The notes below the pieces were generated by a model. That model saw nothing but the letters and a program-made list of their open reading frames with translations. It did no database searches and was not told where the DNA came from. The position numbers were made by a program, and so were the translations under genes. Shown piece by piece: positions 4,854 to 55,058 of a stretch of DNA of 64,000 bases (position 1 is its first letter; each line of letters starts with the position of its first letter). Source of the DNA: Pseudomonas azotoformans (GTDB lineage: Bacteria; Pseudomonadota; Gammaproteobacteria; Pseudomonadales; Pseudomonadaceae); assembly GCF_900103345.1 (NCBI RefSeq), contig NZ_LT629702.1:2542001-2606000 (forward strand). The letters run 5' to 3'.

Positions 4854-4880
4854 ATGGGTGGTGCAAAAGCCTTGTGAGAC

Positions 4881-47069: not shown

Positions 47070-47135
47070 AACCGTGCGGCCTCCAGGTCTGAACTGAACC
47101 GCGCCTTACGCCCATCGAGCCAAGGCCCTTTGATA

Positions 47136-50100
47136 ATGCGCAACCCCGTCGACTCCTTGCCACCCCTGCCCCGCATTTACGCCCTGGACCCCCAAGAGGC
47201 GGAACAAAGCTGGGACAGCGCCCCGCAACTGCTGGCCGCGCTCAATGCCGCCCGGCTGGGCGCCTGGTGCTGGGAAATCGACACCGGCAGGATAAGCTGG
47301 TCGCGGGGCACCCAGGCGCTGTTCGGCTTTGACCCGCGCCAACCGCTACCCAAGGACCTGGACTATCTGGACCTGCTCGCGCCACAGGATCGCGCCCGCG
47401 TGGTGCGGGCCTTTCACGCGGTATTGGCCGGCGAGCCGTTCGAACAGGCGATGCATCACCATATCCAGTGGCCGGACGGCACCCACCACTGGCTGGAAAT
47501 CAATGGCAGCCTGGCACCTGACAAAGCCGGGCGGCGGCGCATGATCGGGGTGATCCGCGAGACCACCCGCCAGCGCGAACGGGAGCACGCCCTCAGCCAC
47601 TCGGAAAAACGCTTCGCCACGCTGTTTCACCTGTGCCCCAACATGGTCTTGCTGACTCGCCAGTCCGACGGACTGATCAGTGAGGCCAACCAGTATTTCG
47701 AGATGCTTTTCGGCTGGCCGGTCGCCGATGCCATCGGCCGCACCACCCTGGACCTGGGCCTGTGGCGCCATCCGGAACAGCGTGCGCAACTGGTCAAGGC
47801 GACCCAGCGCAAGGGCCTGCCCATCACCATGGAGGTGCAGTTCTGCGCCAGCAACGGCCAGATCCACGACGGCACCCTCAGCGCACAAAAGGTGGAATTG
47901 GACGGCGAGGCTTACCTGCTCAGTACCTTTCTGGACACCACCGAGCGCAAAATAGCCGAGCAGGCCCTCAAGGACAGCCAGGAACGCCTCGACCTGGCCC
48001 TGGATTCAGCGCAACTGGGTACCTGGGACTGGCACATCCCCACCGGCATGCTCTATGGCTCGGCCCGCGCCGCCCAATTGCATGGCCTGCCGCCGGAGCC
48101 GTTCCACGAGTCCTTTGACGCCTTCTTCGATGGCATGCCCAATGACGAGCGCGAGAGCATGCGCAACGCCTACCGCACCCTGCGCGAAGGCCCGGCCGGC
48201 AATTATCAGCTGACGTATCGCGTGCCCATGGAAGACGGCAGCTCACGCTACCTCGAAAGCCGCGCCCGCCTGTACCGTGATGAGCACGGCGCGCCGCTGC
48301 GCATGGCCGGCACGTTGCTGGACATCACCGACCAGGTGGAACGCGAACAACGCCTGACCGCCTCCGAGGAAAAATTCGCCAGCCTGTTCCAGGCCAGCCC
48401 GGACCCGATCTGCGTCACCTGCCTGGAGGGCGGCGCGTTTATCGAAATCAACCCCGCGTTTACCCAGACCTTTGGCTGGACGGCCGCCGAGGTCATCGAC
48501 AAAAGCGCCGAGCAGATTGGCCTATGGGACGAGTCGAGCAAGCGCCTGCAGCGTATCGAGCGGATGATCCGCGAGCAGGCATTGAACAATGTGGCGATCG
48601 TGGTGCATCACAAGAACGGCCAGACCCTGACATGCGTCATCTCCAGCCGCTTGATCAAGGTGGGTGACCAGCCGTGCATCGTCACCACGCTGCGCGATAT
48701 CACCCAGCAGCAGCGCTCGGAAGCGGCGCTCAAGGCCAGCGAAGAGAAATTCGCCAAGGCCTTCCATTCCAGCCCCGACGCCATTTCCATCACTGAGCGC
48801 GACACCGGCCGCTATGTGGAGGTCAACGACGGCTTCTGCCGCCTGACCGGCTATCGCGCCGAGGAAGCCATCGGCTTGACCCTGTATCAGATCGGCATCT
48901 GGGCCGATGAAAACCAGCGCGCCGCGCTGCTGGCCGAGTTGCAGATCAAGGGCCGCATTCATCATCTGGAAATGCTCTGGCACAACAAGCGCGGCGAGTT
49001 GCTGGCGGTGGAAGTCTCGGTGGAGCCCATCACCCTGAATGAAACCCCGTGCCTGTTGCTGACCGCCCGCGACGTGAGCCTGCTGAAAAACGCCCAGGCG
49101 CAGATCCGCCACCTGGCCTATCACGACCCGTTGACCAACCTGCCCAACCGCGCCCTGCTGATGGACCGCCTGAGCCAGCAGATCGCCCTGCTCAAGCGGC
49201 ATAATCTGCGCGGCGCGCTGCTGTTTCTTGACCTCGACCACTTCAAGCACATCAACGACTCCCTCGGCCACCCGGTGGGCGACACCGTGTTGAGGATTGT
49301 CACTGCACGCCTGGAAGCCAGCGTGCGCATGGAAGACACCGTGGCGCGCCTGGGAGGCGATGAGTTCGTGGTGCTGCTCAGTGGCCTGGAGGGATCGCGC
49401 ATGGAAGTCAGCGCCCAAGTGCAGGAGCTGGCCGATACCCTGCGTGAACTGCTCTCGGAGCCGATGTTCCTGGACGGTCATCGACTGCAGGTCACGCCAA
49501 GTATCGGCGTAGCACTGATTCCCGATCATGGTTCAACGCCAGCGGATCTGCTCAAACGTGCCGACATCGCTCTGTATCGCGCCAAGGATTCGGGGCGCAA
49601 CACCACGCAGATGTTTCACAACAGCATGCAAAAAACCGCCAGTGAACGCCTGCGCATGGAAACAGACTTGCGCCTGGCCTTGTCACGTGGCGAATTCAGT
49701 GTGCATTACCAACCCCAGGTGGACGCACGGGGCAACAAGATCGTCGGCGCCGAGGCCCTGGTGCGCTGGCAACACCCCCAACTGGGTGCGCAGTCACCTT
49801 CCGAGTTCATCAAGGTGCTGGAAGACAGCGGCCTGATCCTTGAGGTGGGCACCTGGATCCTGGATGAAGCCTGCGCGGCCTTTCAACAACTGATCCACGA
49901 AGGCTTGGTAGACCCACTGAATTTCAGCCTGTGCGTGAACATCAGCCCCCGGCAGTTTCGCCAGAACGACTTCGTGGAGCGGGTGGAGCGCAGCCTCAAG
50001 CAACATCAGTTGCCATTCAGCCTTTTGAAACTGGAGATCACCGAAGGCATCGTGATCCAGAACCTGGACGACACCATCAGCAAAATGCGCCGCCTGAAAA

Positions 50101-50414
50101 AACTCGGCGTGAGCTTTGCGATGGATGACTTCGGTACTGGCTATTCATCGCTCACTTATCTCAAGCGCCTGCCGGTGGATGCACTGAAGATCGACCAATC
50201 CTTTGTGCGCGACGCGACCCATGACCCCAACGACGCTGAAATCATCCGTGCAATTGTGGCAATGGCCCGCAGCCTGAACCTGGAAGTGATCGCCGAAGGC
50301 GTGGAGACCCCGGAGCAACTGGCGTTCCTGCAAAAACTGGGCTGCCATCTGTTCCAGGGTTATTTGCATAGCCGCCCCTTGCCGATCGAGGGGTTCCGGC
50401 AACTGCTGAGGTAG
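47136..50414 (+). CDS. Five-PAS GGDEF-EAL cyclic-di-GMP protein
   Basis: 1092 residues, no membrane segment. About five PAS domains (roughly 28-145, 150-270, 280-400, 405-525, 530-650), each ending in a PAC-like coil (e.g. DITDQVEREQRLTASEEKF). GGDEF motif intact at 740-744 (RLGGDEFVVLL), EAL intact at 873-875 (GAEALVRW), with EITEGIVI, MDDFGTGYSSL and EGVETPEQ. Both activities may therefore be possible; net effect on c-di-GMP is unknown. Start taken at the ATG 47136; a TTG at 47130 would add two residues. Confidence 0.94.
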   Translation: MRNPVDSLPPLPRIYALDPQEAEQSWDSAPQLLAALNAARLGAWCWEIDTGRISWSRGTQALFGFDPRQPLPKDLDYLDLLAPQDRARVVRAFHAVLAGEPFEQAMHHHIQWPDGTHHWLEINGSLAPDKAGRRRMIGVIRETTRQREREHALSHSEKRFATLFHLCPNMVLLTRQSDGLISEANQYFEMLFGWPVADAIGRTTLDLGLWRHPEQRAQLVKATQRKGLPITMEVQFCASNGQIHDGTLSAQKVELDGEAYLLSTFLDTTERKIAEQALKDSQERLDLALDSAQLGTWDWHIPTGMLYGSARAAQLHGLPPEPFHESFDAFFDGMPNDERESMRNAYRTLREGPAGNYQLTYRVPMEDGSSRYLESRARLYRDEHGAPLRMAGTLLDITDQVEREQRLTASEEKFASLFQASPDPICVTCLEGGAFIEINPAFTQTFGWTAAEVIDKSAEQIGLWDESSKRLQRIERMIREQALNNVAIVVHHKNGQTLTCVISSRLIKVGDQPCIVTTLRDITQQQRSEAALKASEEKFAKAFHSSPDAISITERDTGRYVEVNDGFCRLTGYRAEEAIGLTLYQIGIWADENQRAALLAELQIKGRIHHLEMLWHNKRGELLAVEVSVEPITLNETPCLLLTARDVSLLKNAQAQIRHLAYHDPLTNLPNRALLMDRLSQQIALLKRHNLRGALLFLDLDHFKHINDSLGHPVGDTVLRIVTARLEASVRMEDTVARLGGDEFVVLLSGLEGSRMEVSAQVQELADTLRELLSEPMFLDGHRLQVTPSIGVALIPDHGSTPADLLKRADIALYRAKDSGRNTTQMFHNSMQKTASERLRMETDLRLALSRGEFSVHYQPQVDARGNKIVGAEALVRWQHPQLGAQSPSEFIKVLEDSGLILEVGTWILDEACAAFQQLIHEGLVDPLNFSLCVNISPRQFRQNDFVERVERSLKQHQLPFSLLKLEITEGIVIQNLDDTISKMRRLKKLGVSFAMDDFGTGYSSLTYLKRLPVDALKIDQSFVRDATHDPNDAEIIRAIVAMARSLNLEVIAEGVETPEQLAFLQKLGCHLFQGYLHSRPLPIEGFRQLLR

Positions 50415-50417
50415 CCC

Positions 50418-51716
50418 TCACACCAGCTTCAATGCCCACATTGTTCTATCGGACCACCCCGATGACGTCAAGCCGAGCTTTTGGCCGTAGTTGTCCACCG
50501 AACCGCTGACTGCCAACACCGAATGCATATTGTCAGCGAGCGTGCCAATGGCGCCTTTGGCCAACTCTTGCGCAGTGCTCTGCCGCACGTGGGCAATCAA
50601 CCCCAATCTGCGCAACGCCTGGCCTGGCGCTTCTCCGTCATTCAACGAGTGCATGGCGTCCTCAAAACTGCGACCAGCACGCATGTCGTTGTTTTCCAGT
50701 TGCGCACGCTTGGCGCTCACGGCGTATAAAAAGTTGGCGTCGTCCTTGAGCGCCTGGTCAGAACCGTCCAGGTTTGACCCCTGCTCGGCCTTGCGCCGCT
50801 CTTCATGACTCAGAAACAGCTTGAAGCCATCGCGCATGATCACCTCAAAACCGCCCGATACAGCGCTGATGTTTTTGTAAATACCCGCAGGATTCTGACC
50901 AAACTTCATCATCGCGGCCTTGATCGCCGATATCGTGACGCAATTGCCCTCGGCACCTTGATAAAAGCCGCTCCATATATTTCTGGGTTTCATGCCCACC
51001 GGCATCTGTGAAACAACCGTGTTATTGCGATTGGCCGAAGCCTTCTCGAGCGGGGTTTTGTCGTTGAACAAGCGGTAGCCGTAGCCTCGGTCAACACGGC
51101 GCCTTTCGGTGTAGTCGTGCCTGACGCCATCAAGGACAAACGCACTGCCTCGGGTATGTGTCTCAAGCACACCTGCCACCCCATCCCCGACCATCTGATG
51201 AGTCGGAACATATTGCGACAGTCCGTACAAGCCCATGCCCCGCAGGCACCGCAGGGTCGTCTCACCCTGCAAGGTATCAGCCAAGGCGCCGTCGAAAGTG
51301 TGATAGCCGCCCATAACCTGCTTGCGTTTGACATAGGCGGTGAGCGCGACGTTGGCGCTGTCGACGGCACCGCTGTCCGCACCGGTGAAGCGGGAGGCGC
51401 GCCTTGTCTGTTCGAGTTCATGCTGGGAAATCACCACCTTGAACTCGTCTTTCATGGTGATGGCGTACCCCCCGGCAACCGGCACGAATTGGGCAAACAT
51501 GTCTTTCGGGCTTGACCCAAAGGTTGCCATCATCATCTTGATGACCGCCGCATGGGTGCTGGTATCAAAATTCTCGCCAAAATGACGCCGAGAAGCTTCA
51601 AAGCCGACCCCCTTTGTGGTCGGCTTGGCAACCGCCTGTCCCGTAGCGTGGGTAACGTGCCTGTAGTCCGGTGAACGCCCCCAGCCGACAGGAGGAGCAA
51701 AGACAGCAAAGGTCAT
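50418..51716 (-). CDS. Tandem-domain protein with papain-like Cys-His-Asp motif; candidate secreted effector
   Basis: 432 residues; I do not recognise a named family. It consists of two homologous domains. Domain 2 (about 245-415) has Cys259 in EGNCVTISAIKAAMMKFG, His398 in DNMHSVLAVSG and Asp408 in SVDNYGQ, an order seen in papain-fold peptidases. Domain 1 (about 43-205) aligns with it (VIKMMMATFG, GGYAITMKDEFKVVIS, ANVALTAYVKRKQ), but has Ser53 and Gly190 in place of Cys and His. No signal peptide; no acidic residue in the first 16, as is common for type III substrates. It follows the hrp-boxed repeat gene by 140 bp with a hairpin between. Peptidase activity is an inference. Start follows GGAGG. 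Confidence 0.82.
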   Translation of the reverse strand: MTFAVFAPPVGWGRSPDYRHVTHATGQAVAKPTTKGVGFEASRRHFGENFDTSTHAAVIKMMMATFGSSPKDMFAQFVPVAGGYAITMKDEFKVVISQHELEQTRRASRFTGADSGAVDSANVALTAYVKRKQVMGGYHTFDGALADTLQGETTLRCLRGMGLYGLSQYVPTHQMVGDGVAGVLETHTRGSAFVLDGVRHDYTERRRVDRGYGYRLFNDKTPLEKASANRNNTVVSQMPVGMKPRNIWSGFYQGAEGNCVTISAIKAAMMKFGQNPAGIYKNISAVSGGFEVIMRDGFKLFLSHEERRKAEQGSNLDGSDQALKDDANFLYAVSAKRAQLENNDMRAGRSFEDAMHSLNDGEAPGQALRRLGLIAHVRQSTAQELAKGAIGTLADNMHSVLAVSGSVDNYGQKLGLTSSGWSDRTMWALKLV

Positions 51717-51758
51717 AAACCCTCCGAAACCAAATTGAATAAGTGAAAAAACGCTGCC

Positions 51759-51799
51759 CCCAACCAGCCCTCCCCAATCGCACCTGTGATTGGGGAGGC
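51759..51799 (-). terminator. Hairpin between the two accessory genes
   Basis: CCAGCC-TCCCCAATC and GATTGGGGA-GGCTGG form a long stem with one bulge. A TTTTTT follows about 15 nt later on the minus strand. It is likely a partial terminator that lowers expression of the downstream tandem-domain gene. Confidence 0.6.
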
Positions 51800-51856
51800 T
51801 GGATCCCTCATCAAGCTTTTAAGACGAGCCGGCTGACATCAAGACTCGTCTGCACC

Positions 51857-53491
51857 TCAGGCCCTTACCCCTTCCAATCGGGGATTCATGACCCTGCGAG
51901 GGGCGGTGGGGGTTTTCACTTCTACAGTTGGCTCTGCATCAACCTTGTCCGAAGGTTGTGGCCCTGGAGTGGCCGGCGTCTGTACCTTCGGCTCAGTCTC
52001 GACCTTTACCTCGACCTTTTGCTCCGGGGTCGGTGGCACCTGTACCTCTGGCTCAGCCTCGACCTTTACCTCGACCTTGCGCTCCGGGGTCGGTGGCACC
52101 TGTACCTCTGGCTCAGCCTCGACCTTTACCTCGACCTTTTGCTCCGGGGTCGGTGGCACCTGTACCTCTGGCTCAGCCTCGACCTTTACCTCGACCTTTT
52201 GCTCCGGGGTCGGTGGCACCTGTACCTCTGGCTCAACCTCGACCTTGTGCTCTGGGGTGGGCGGCATCTGGACCTTCGGCTCTGCACCGACTGCTACCTC
52301 AGCCTGTTGCTCCCCGTTCGACTCGCCATTCACCTTGGGTTCAGTACCGACTCTAGCCTCTGCCTTCAACTGAGAAATGGTCTTTACTTCCGCCTCCGGC
52401 TGCTTACCCAGCGCCGCATGCGTCGACTGCCTCGGGGTAATGTCACGGATTGTTACTGGTTGGTTCTCCCCCCACCCCTCCGAACTAATCCGCACGTTGA
52501 CACCAGCCTCCACACGTACCCTGAACTGCTTACCTTCCTCAGCTGTAACGCTCACTTGCGTACTGCCATCTGGCATAACCTGCACCTGGGCATCACCACC
52601 CGACGTCCCCACCTGCGCGTCACTGCCAACATCCCTTTGAACGCTCTTTCCGACAGTCTGCGCAGACGAACTATTGCTAAAACCAGTGATTTTCATCTGC
52701 GCGCTGCCACTCGCGTCGGCCTTGACATTACCGTCCTTGCCCACAGTGACTGTCGCCACTTTATTATCGCCTGGGGCTTTAACTTGCACAGCGCCGTCAG
52801 CATCAACATTGACCTTGGCGTCCTTACCCGCAGTGACTGTCATCGATTTATTATTATCGCCAGCAGTCTTCACTTGCATGGAGGTGTCAGCACCGATGCT
52901 TACATCACCGTCCTTGCCCACCGTGACTGTCGCCGCTTTATTATCGCCTGGGACTTTAACTTGCACGGCACCGTCAGCATCAACATTGACCTTGGCGTCC
53001 TTACCCGCAGTGACTGTCGTCGACTTATTATTATCGCCAGCAGTCTTCAATTGCGTGGAGCCATTTGCATTGATATTCACACCCACAATGCCGCCGGAAA
53101 CCCGGTCATCTTTCTTTACAGCAGGTGACGGCTTCCCTTTGGAATTCAACCCGCCCTCCACAGACACTTCAATACCACTCTCCGCCTTTGCTGCATGCGG
53201 TACTACCGTCGCGGCGTTAGAACTGAATGACCTGCCGGACAACAGGCTGCGCATGGCCTTGAAGACCAGATCAAACATCTCGAATAATTTTTCCAGCGCA
53301 TCAGAGTTAACGGAAATCTCCTTTGCCCCCATCACAGTTTTATTAACCTCTCGTGCAGCCCCTTTAATACCGAGATCCGTAGCGAGCGTGCTAACGCGTT
53401 CAACATCTTTCACAAGACCGGTAGAACTTTGGCCACCCAACTGGAGTTCCGGAACAAAAACTTTAGGCGTGCCAAGCGATACATTGGACAT
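51857..53491 (-). CDS. Repeat protein behind a hrp box; candidate type III substrate
   Basis: 544 residues; no named family recognised. The first 12 residues MSNVSLGTPKVF contain no acidic residue and have Val at position 4, as expected for type III export. Residues about 60-90 look amphipathic (ALEKLFEMFDLVFKAMRSLL). Residues about 140-290 hold degenerate 29-30-residue repeats (DGAVQVK-x-PGDNK-x-ATVTVGKD). Residues about 410-500 hold 20-residue repeats PPTPEQKVEVKVEAEPEVQV. No signal peptide. ATG at 53489-53491 follows GAGG. A hrp box lies 102 bp upstream. A harpin- or helper-like role is an inference. Confidence 0.83.
   Translation of the reverse strand: MSNVSLGTPKVFVPELQLGGQSSTGLVKDVERVSTLATDLGIKGAAREVNKTVMGAKEISVNSDALEKLFEMFDLVFKAMRSLLSGRSFSSNAATVVPHAAKAESGIEVSVEGGLNSKGKPSPAVKKDDRVSGGIVGVNINANGSTQLKTAGDNNKSTTVTAGKDAKVNVDADGAVQVKVPGDNKAATVTVGKDGDVSIGADTSMQVKTAGDNNKSMTVTAGKDAKVNVDADGAVQVKAPGDNKVATVTVGKDGNVKADASGSAQMKITGFSNSSSAQTVGKSVQRDVGSDAQVGTSGGDAQVQVMPDGSTQVSVTAEEGKQFRVRVEAGVNVRISSEGWGENQPVTIRDITPRQSTHAALGKQPEAEVKTISQLKAEARVGTEPKVNGESNGEQQAEVAVGAEPKVQMPPTPEHKVEVEPEVQVPPTPEQKVEVKVEAEPEVQVPPTPEQKVEVKVEAEPEVQVPPTPERKVEVKVEAEPEVQVPPTPEQKVEVKVETEPKVQTPATPGPQPSDKVDAEPTVEVKTPTAPRRVMNPRLEGVRA
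51985..52260 (-). repeat. 60-bp tandem repeats inside the repeat protein
   Basis: Units beginning GCTCCGGGGTCGGTGGCACC recur at 52021, 52081, 52141 and 52201 with a strict 60-bp period and almost no differences; degenerate copies flank them. The unit encodes the 20-residue PPTPEQ/KVEVKVEAEPEVQV motif. Near-identity implies recent duplication or gene conversion. Confidence 0.95.
52725..53075 (-). repeat. 177-bp duplication inside the repeat protein
   Basis: The stretch CAACATTGACCTTGGCGTCC at 52804 recurs at 52981, with nearly identical sequence around it (offset 177 bp). Each block encodes two 29-30-residue repeats. This is a second repeat class in the same gene. Confidence 0.9.
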
Positions 53492-53592
53492 CTTGTAACC
53501 TCATGATTAGTTATGTGCTGCCTCGAAGCATTTAGAAACCCGGACAGCAATTAATATAAAACTGGAAACAATCACATCTCGCAGTCCCTATT

Positions 53593-53620
53593 TTCGTGGA
53601 CTAAAACGCGATCAAGTTCC
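53593..53620 (-). promoter_or_regulatory. hrp box (HrpL-type promoter)
   Basis: On the minus strand GGAACT (53615-53620), 15-nt spacer, CCACGAA (53593-53599) fits GGAACY-N15/16-CCACNNA, the promoter of the ECF sigma factor HrpL that switches on type III secretion genes in plant-associated Pseudomonas. It would start transcription near 53585, about 95 nt before the repeat-protein ATG. Confidence 0.72.
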
Positions 53621-53961
53621 AATAATCCGACTTCACATAAGGCAAACAAAATTGAAAATCAGATTTTAGCCCATGACTATTTGAGGAAACGCTCTAAACC
53701 CACTGCGCCAGCGAACGCCGCATGGACAAACACGGTAACAACCAAGCCTAAATCGAAAATAATGAAACCATTAACCCCCAACAAAACCCAACACTTATGT
53801 TAGTTGCGCACGGGCCCGTATCAGAAAACAATCAAATTGCGTTCTTCCTGAAAAATTAAAATACCAATCAAATAACTGCATACATTCAACCGCCCTATTC
53901 AACATCAGTAAACATGAGTCCGCCCTCTTCAGCCCCCGGAGCATTCACTTAAACACAGTAC
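53621..53961. other. AT-rich non-coding stretch
   Basis: About 340 bp, clearly AT-richer than the rest of the window, between the hrp box and the dusC terminator. No reading frame with coding character, tRNA or insertion sequence seen. The composition suggests acquired DNA or decayed remnants. Confidence 0.5.
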
Positions 53962-53985
53962 AAAAAAAGGGCGCCAAGGGCGCCC
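53962..53985 (-). terminator. Terminator of dusC
   Basis: GGGCGCC and GGCGCCC form a 7-bp stem with a 3-nt loop and T7 on the minus strand. It lies about 60 bp beyond the dusC stop. Confidence 0.92.
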
Positions 53986-54043
53986 ATTCATCAATGCTTT
54001 TGTAAACTTATTAAATATAAACGCTATTTTTCAGCACCGTCAC

Positions 54044-55003
54044 TCACTGCGTGTCTACCGGCACCATACCGAGCAAACGGCTCACTTGTGCCAGCTCGGT
54101 TTCCCGGCGCATGGCCGTAAACAGCTCCACCGCTTCCGGATAGTTGCGCGTCAGCATCGCCAGCCATTGCTTCAAACGACCTGGTGCCTGACGCTCGGTC
54201 AGTTGCGCCACCGACTGGGTCCAGAAGTCCTGGAGCATGGGCTGCATCTGCGCCCAGGTCATTTCAACCACCTCCTCACCCGCCCGCGCCGCAGCGATCT
54301 GCCGCGCCAGGTCCGGGCGCGCCACCAGGCCACGGCCCAGCATGATGTCTTCGGCACCGCTGATTTCGCGGCAACGCTTCCAGTCTTCGACGCTCCAGAT
54401 ATCGCCATTGGCGAACACCGGCACCTTGACCACATCCTGCACCCGCGGGATCCATTCCCAGTGCGCGGGCGGCTTGTAGCCATCCGTTTTGGTACGCGCA
54501 TGCACCACGATATGCGCCGCGCCGCCTTCGGCCAGGGCCGTGGCGCAGACCAGGGCGCCGTCCGGGCTGTCGAAACCCAGGCGCATCTTGGCAGTCACCG
54601 GGATGTGCGCCGGCACAGCACGGCGTACGTGCTCGACGATCTGGTTGAGCAGCTCCGGCTCCTTGAGCAGTACCGCACCGCCACGGGACTTGTTGACGGT
54701 CTTGGCCGGGCAACCGAAGTTGAGGTCGATGACCTGGGAACCGAGCTCACAGGCCAGGGCGGCGTTTTCCGCCAGGCACACCGGGTCGGAGCCGAGCAAC
54801 TGCACGCGCAGCGGCACACCGGCAGCGGTGTGGGCACCGTGCAGCAGTTCCGGAGCGAGCTTATGGAAATACGCAGGGGTGAGCAGGCGGTCGTTGACGC
54901 GGATGAACTCGGTCACGCACCAGTCGATACCGCCGACACGGGTCAGCACGTCCCGCAGGATGTTGTCGACCAACCCCTCCATGGGCGCCAAAGCAATTTG
55001 CAT
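54044..55003 (-). CDS. dusC: tRNA-dihydrouridine(16) synthase
   Basis: Flavin enzyme that reduces U16 in tRNA. 319 residues from [14 protein letters not shown]; catalytic Cys in [22 protein letters not shown], and FANGDIWS with FMN-binding residues. The short N-terminus and APMEG motif are those of DusC rather than DusA or DusB. Start at 55003. Confidence 0.94.
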
Positions 55004-55058
55004 GGAAAACACTCAACAAAAATCGTGGCGCAGTTTACTGGGTTTCCCACAGCAACCG

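Follow-up and report, generated by a model that had tools for sequence, protein, structure and literature searches.

In strains A506, SS101, BG33R, WCS374, WCS417 and WH6 of the Pseudomonas fluorescens group, hrp boxes, the promoter motifs of HrpL (RspL), are reported upstream of genes for hypothetical proteins whose N-termini are type III-like (PMC3390384, PMC4509608, PMC6647874, PMC2997014). The functions of type III systems in these fluorescent pseudomonads are called enigmatic in one of these papers (PMC3390384). What such systems deliver in these largely harmless or beneficial bacteria, and into whom, is the question addressed here for 64,000 nucleotides of the Pseudomonas azotoformans genome (G000; positions 2542001-2606000 of C1, a single 6.73-Mb contig; hereafter the window), which carry two genes, gene 1 and gene 2, behind a candidate hrp box. 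Predicted HrpL-controlled hypothetical effectors are already a published class, to which this operon adds a member, and the question gains a concrete object in a multi-gene family that is widely shared, tagged by its promoter and predicted to have an enzyme site.

We consider it likely that genes 1 and 2 form a type III substrate operon transcribed by HrpL (RspL) and lodged in the gap that separates a dihydrouridine synthase gene from a GGDEF/EAL gene, and that their products are probably cargo for injection into the cells of another organism. The basis in the sequence is the box and its conservation, a genomic hrpL, a common N-terminal module, a Gln-Cys-His-Asp set and a predicted fold, and from these we infer HrpL dependence, co-transcription, secretion, activity and target.

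A preliminary description of the window had pointed out the box, GGAACT-N15-CCACGAA on the minus strand, and a 544-residue protein encoded by the first gene behind it. Both are there, with 101 bp between the box and the ATG of gene 1. Published work defines the hrp box as a sequence of the GGAACC-N15/16-CCACNNA type located 30-300 bp before a gene, with a looser form, xGGAACx, that allows T (PMC6647874); the box of the window falls within this definition as a GGAACT variant with a spacer of 15. Nothing else in the window matches GGAACT-N14-18-CCACNNA (mean of 0.07 matches in 100 shuffles, 7 of which had at least one), and GGAACC-N15-17-CCACNNA has no match there.

Homologues of gene 2 were found in 42 of the 298 genomes of the genus that were searched with it as query. 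We compared 40 stretches around these matches, 26 of them at the same place between the two bordering genes (hereafter the slot) and 14 elsewhere, together with 20 more at the slot or its place, and the operon is an insertion there. A box with spacer 15 precedes the first gene on the operon strand in all 31 intact filled intervals (22 + 9; the window excluded and the contig-cut loci L080, L087, L091 and L098 left out), which are linked by common descent rather than being independent trials, versus none of the eight same-clade intervals lacking the family. Two more distant loci (L169 and L170) were excluded from the latter set as not comparable, and L165 was counted separately, since the slot there is occupied by a box and another small open reading frame (ORF). 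The family-free intervals are mostly short, L168 retaining ~630 bp of unassigned sequence. Because the box is conserved in relatives in this way, we rejected a chance match. When both strands of loci L075-L114 and of the window were scanned (1,027,052 bases), the pattern occurred 40 times and its reversed control 10 times.

In an alignment of 20 leaders (L081, L112 and L093 left out) the ten core positions are invariant, while the spacer averages 57% identity and the 60 bases upstream 67%; the core was chosen by the pattern, yet every intact filled interval contained the pattern. The distance from box to start codon is 98-105 bp in 20 of the 21 loci with gene 1 (window included), an agreement helped somewhat by the choice of starts within 20-260 bp with MS or MT preferred; at L093 the automatic start is 49 bp from the box and an MTNVS start 97 bp. 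About 25 bp upstream of the box, the leaders share a TTTCCTTATRT-like element, perhaps the site of a second regulator. A pattern derived from these same sequences, which the variant in the window misses, occurs close to the box in 24 of the 36 filled-slot sources scanned (four of them contig-cut), in 0 of 9 other slot loci and in 0 of 14 paralogue loci.

The association with a box extends beyond the slot. At 14 non-slot loci, taken from a larger number of non-slot matches in the genus search, a box match stands at the 5' end of all 15 family genes or arrays (ten with spacer 16, five with spacer 15). The true starts at L103, L106 and L114 must lie further in, since the box falls inside the mechanically longest ORF. 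One of these 15 is a second family copy in the genome under study (C1:3204586-3205146, box at 3205696-3205724).

Two results lend the box no support. The loose pattern GGAAC-N15-18-CCACNNA is not enriched genome-wide (80 matches versus 88 for the reversed control), and a first, cruder promoter matrix (10+10 columns, unweighted) keeps the box out of the top six sites of the window with both of its training sets. A second matrix (8+7 columns, GC-rich background), built after the result of the first was known and trained on 29 down-weighted boxes from the hrpJ position and all paralogue boxes but that of the near-duplicate locus L101 (14 of 15), with no slot boxes, ranks the box of the window first at 16.5, the runner-up scoring 15.1. 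Given the lack of genome-wide enrichment, a match by itself proves nothing, and the case for the box rests on its conservation across relatives.

The preliminary description had made its reading depend on an hrpL homologue elsewhere in the genome; one is found, along with an hrp/rsp cluster, about 3 Mb from the operon. The gene, at C1:5597630-5598349 on the minus strand beside hrpJ/hrcV, codes for an extracytoplasmic function (ECF) sigma factor, which we take to be HrpL by position, the only model above cut-off being that of the ECF superfamily (TIGR02937). It is divergent to hrpJ, which is followed by hrcV, hrpQ, hrcN, hrcR and others, and further on by hrcC, hrpF-type genes, hrcJ and an hrpR-like regulator, several of these names being our own assignments by position. 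Profiles for SctV, SctC, SctJ, SctR and SctD score above cut-off in this cluster, and those for SctN (589 of 605 bits) and SctW (80 of 89.5) just under. Needle and translocon gave no clear identification in the hrp cluster, and inspection by eye recognised no harpin or translocator gene in it; an ORF of 54 codons that precedes the hrpB-like gene may, also by eye, be a pilin. In this genome hrpJ is preceded by a box match and the hrpF operon has one at its 5' end; a match is present at the hrpJ position in all 30 hrpL loci examined (of 85 hrpL-positive genomes). The boxes at the hrpJ position (30 of 30 with spacer 16, ending CCACACA or CCACATA) and those at the slot (31 of 31 with spacer 15, 25 of them ending CCACGAA) are two promoter flavours.

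No apparatus lies in the window itself, as the preliminary description had said, the hrcV model having zero matches there. Elsewhere in the genome it scores above cut-off at 5599546 and 2181779, and below it at 2861153, probably flagellar FlhA. The second match above cut-off (C1:2181779-2183791) suggests a second type III system. A whole-genome search for harpin (PF04877) and NolX (PF05819) gave no match and is uninformative, because control genomes were silent too. Among ten box loci inspected on the same chromosome, five (L013, L025, L027, L032 and L036) have ORFs that lie 50-78 bp behind a box and whose N-termini are type III-like and rich in Ser and Thr, although a longer frame spans the box at L025 and L036; the regulon may therefore have more scattered members.

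Concerning the distribution of hrpL, a match (E 1e-15 or better) is present in all 42 family genomes and in 85 of the 298 overall, and the family is present in none of the 213 genomes without hrpL. Use of this co-occurrence as proof was withdrawn, as it follows the clade: this hrpL type, the family, and the clade with the GGDEF neighbour at 91% or more coincide in at least 44 genomes, and the family is missing from 43 genomes that have hrpL, of which four (G029, G100, G170 and G175) belong to the clade. For these reasons the co-occurrence adds little beyond the promoter evidence.

The proteins of the gene 2 family are predicted to consist of two papain-like halves, one with a Gln-Cys-His-Asp set and the other with Ser in place of Cys. 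The four residues of the second half are invariant in 76 of 76 family members, and both halves give papain-like structure matches with their predicted fold. The spacing between Gln and Cys is 6, as it is in papain. The first half is probably a pseudoenzyme, judging from Ser53, which pairs with Cys259 in our own register of both halves. No family member among the 76 matched a Pfam peptidase model, C58 included, at E 0.01, where the only Pfam matches were to DUF7348 (3 members) and DUF7141 (1 member). A profile search from the family alignment scored ~8000 candidates, and the best 120 of its 261 matches were all of kinds already found. Versus P. extremorientalis, gene 2 has 0.075 nonsynonymous (dN) and 0.366 synonymous (dS) substitutions per site. 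Gene 2 probably encodes the catalytic cargo.

In the multi-gene unit, gene 1 comes first and changes fast. Its product begins with MSNVSLGTPK, with Val at position 4, a first acidic residue at position 15 and no hydrophobic leader by eye, which bears out what the preliminary description had read in it, as do the two sets of tandem repeats. This N-terminus agrees with published type III criteria (at most one acidic residue in the first 12, an aliphatic residue at 3 or 4, richness in Ser and polar residues), and I, L or V stands at position 3 or 4 in 19 of the 23 first proteins in the slot (L081, L088, L089 and L112 being the exceptions, with starts chosen by the MS/MT preference). A common plan unites the first proteins of 21 slot loci, window included: a polar start of MS type (once MT), a helix like KLFxMFExVFKAMRxxLSG, and a long, mostly Pro-rich tail. 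The N-terminal profile of these 21 matches that of 15 adjacent single-domain papain-like proteins (hhalign probability 96%, E 3e-9, in a single comparison). From this plan and the effector-like N-terminus, gene 1 looks like a type III substrate in which repeats replace the enzyme part.

The product of gene 1 is predicted to be mostly disordered (mean predicted local distance difference test score of 32, from a 7-sequence alignment), and its model was left out of the fold search. The copy number of the 60-bp repeat differs among relatives, and a 111-codon non-repeat block common with P. extremorientalis has dN 0.072 and dS 0.165. A database search found six relatives among 7993 scored candidates, and gene 1 was found in 16 of 298 genomes; matches are few because most of the sequence past the N-terminal 90 residues changes quickly. 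In Pfam at E 1 it meets only DUF7259, HZS_alpha and SH3_15, all below cut-off, and no match to harpin PF04877. Neither of the two proteins of the window has a match above cut-off in Pfam, NCBIfam or PDB sequences. The preliminary idea of an HrpL-controlled type III substrate thus holds as to box, conservation, hrpL and N-terminus, and had missed gene 2 and the box-linked paralogues.

The features of the locus are collected in Table 1. Terminator-consensus sites like the one upstream of the operon number 4, versus 3.8 in shuffles. The G+C content is 55.5% in gene 1, 57.3% in gene 2 and 41.3% in the gap before gene 1, versus 59.9% in the window, and an Rfam scan of 50300-54100 gave no match. The gap between the two genes (51717-51856, minus strand) contains a hairpin, CCTCCCCAATC/GATTGGGGAGG, with six T 17 bases further on; no terminator was called there (fold z -0.57), and the hairpin could thin out transcription of gene 2.

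Table 1. Features of the operon and its borders, in positions of the window
Feature	Position	Strand	Basis
hrp box (HrpL/RspL promoter-like), GGAACT-N15-CCACGAA, GGAACTTGATCGCGTTTTAGTCCACGAA	53593..53620	-	pattern match
TTTGCCTTATGTG, variant of the conserved TTTCCTTATRT-like element	53634..53646	-	alignment of 20 leaders
Gene 1, 544 residues	51857..53491	-	ORF, ATG start at 53491
Gene 1, conserved N-terminal module, residues 1-90	53222..53491	-	N-terminal homology with papain-like neighbours
Gene 1, helix ALEKLFEMFDLVFKAMRSLL in the N-terminal module, ~residues 63-85			
Gene 1, tandem repeat, 177-bp unit x1.9 (half-unit ~87 bp)	52725..53060	-	
Gene 1, tandem repeat, 60-bp unit x4.4, 96% matches, PEVQVPPTPEQKVEVKVEAE-type	51980..52246	-	
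Gene 2, 432 residues, 140 bp after gene 1	50418..51716	-	ORF
Gene 2, first half, residues 34-224, Ser53 versus Cys259 of second half	51045..51617	-	
Gene 2, second half, residues 234-432, Gln253, Cys259, His398, Asp408	50421..51017	-	
Border 1 of the insertion, dihydrouridine synthase gene	54044..55012	-	PF01207 E 8.8e-66
Terminator-like hairpin 3' of the dihydrouridine synthase gene, upstream of the operon	53969..53985	-	consensus match
Border 2 of the insertion, PAS/GGDEF/EAL gene, convergent with the operon	47130..50414	+	

According to the scenario that we favour, once HrpL is made, transcription would start just after 53593 and the message would span gene 1 and then gene 2, both products leaving the cell via the distant hrp/rsp type III system. 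The gene 1 product, with its putative N-terminal secretion module, amphipathic helix and long disordered repeat tail, would most likely be a secreted accessory or scaffold-type substrate. Within the recipient cell, the gene 2 product would most likely work as a cysteine protease or another papain-fold acyl-transfer enzyme, with a presumably active second half and a first half that, as a dead copy, may serve to bind the target.

An unlikely, though plausible, alternative is that gene 1 is HrpL-controlled but codes for an extracellular helper, harpin-like or an accessory of the translocon or needle, only the gene 2 product being injected. Such a role would suit a product that in the window lacks Cys, is predicted to be disordered and has greatly varying repeats, in a genome whose local hrp cluster yielded no recognisable harpin by eye; the harpin search over the whole genome lends this no weight, its controls being silent. 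It would also suit the slot of G170 (L165; hrpL-positive and family-free), where a box at 4872 with spacer 16 is followed 99 bp on by an ORF of 111 codons, Gly-rich and unrelated, whose end looks amphipathic (L165:4409-4744, minus strand). As a different gene stands behind the box there, the slot seems to swap cargo. However, the N-terminal module of gene 1 matches that of papain-like neighbours that look like effectors, gene 1 has no Pfam match above cut-off, and among the 21 gene 1 proteins, most of them Pro-rich rather than Gly-rich, 19 have Cys, all but that of the window and that of L095. The conserved order of gene 1 followed by one or more papain-like genes in most filled slots would also fit an inhibitor, propeptide-like or export partner that holds the gene 2 product inactive in the bacterium. 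This is improbable, as gene 1 varies strongly for what should be a conserved inhibitor, was not detected at L081, L112 and L174, where a papain-like gene lies directly behind the box, and was not detected at the paralogues elsewhere.

The idea of a fortuitous box and of expression from another promoter can draw on the missing genome-wide enrichment and on a scan of the relative WH6, likewise rich in stray matches, which gave 115 matches with 24 within 500 bp of a gene (PMC2997014). The contrast between filled and family-free intervals and the near-constant distance to the start codon make it highly improbable. A bolder extension of the type III substrate operon, which we hold to be quite doubtful, makes gene 1 the founder of a class of type III substrates of its own, in which a repeat tail of fast-changing length has taken the place of the enzyme domain behind an effector-type N-terminal module. 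Such proteins would serve active-plus-dead tandem papain-like effectors as a spool or translocation aid in fluorescent pseudomonads with hrp clusters apparently devoid of harpin and translocon genes, and at the slot the HrpL promoters would stay in place while the cargo behind them is swapped.

Among known systems, AvrPphB, a C58 peptidase of papain-like fold with a Cys-His-Asp set, has these residues in common with gene 2 and would share its predicted fold type, and its structure (1ukf) is listed at E 1.8 in the gene 2 structure search. It differs in that the gene 2 family has no Pfam peptidase match in 76 members and has tandem, putatively active and inactive halves. The calpain protease core (2p0r, 1kxr) differs at 12% identity, the protein here being bacterial and no other calpain domains having been found in it. 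Harpins (PF04877) resemble gene 1 of this strain, which is predicted to be disordered, Cys-free and behind an hrp box, but gene 1 has no Pfam match and its orthologues are mostly Pro-rich, some with Cys. None of the titles and opening lines of abstracts in the literature searches pointed to a paper about such a tandem papain-like family. The closest counterparts are the predicted effectors of the P. fluorescens group, likewise hypothetical proteins with a box and a type III-like N-terminus in rsp-carrying fluorescent pseudomonads, and some of them may be members of the gene 2 family. In the available passages they are presented without stated domains, whereas the operon, the common N-terminal module, the tandem papain-like halves and the comparison of filled and empty slots come from the present analysis.
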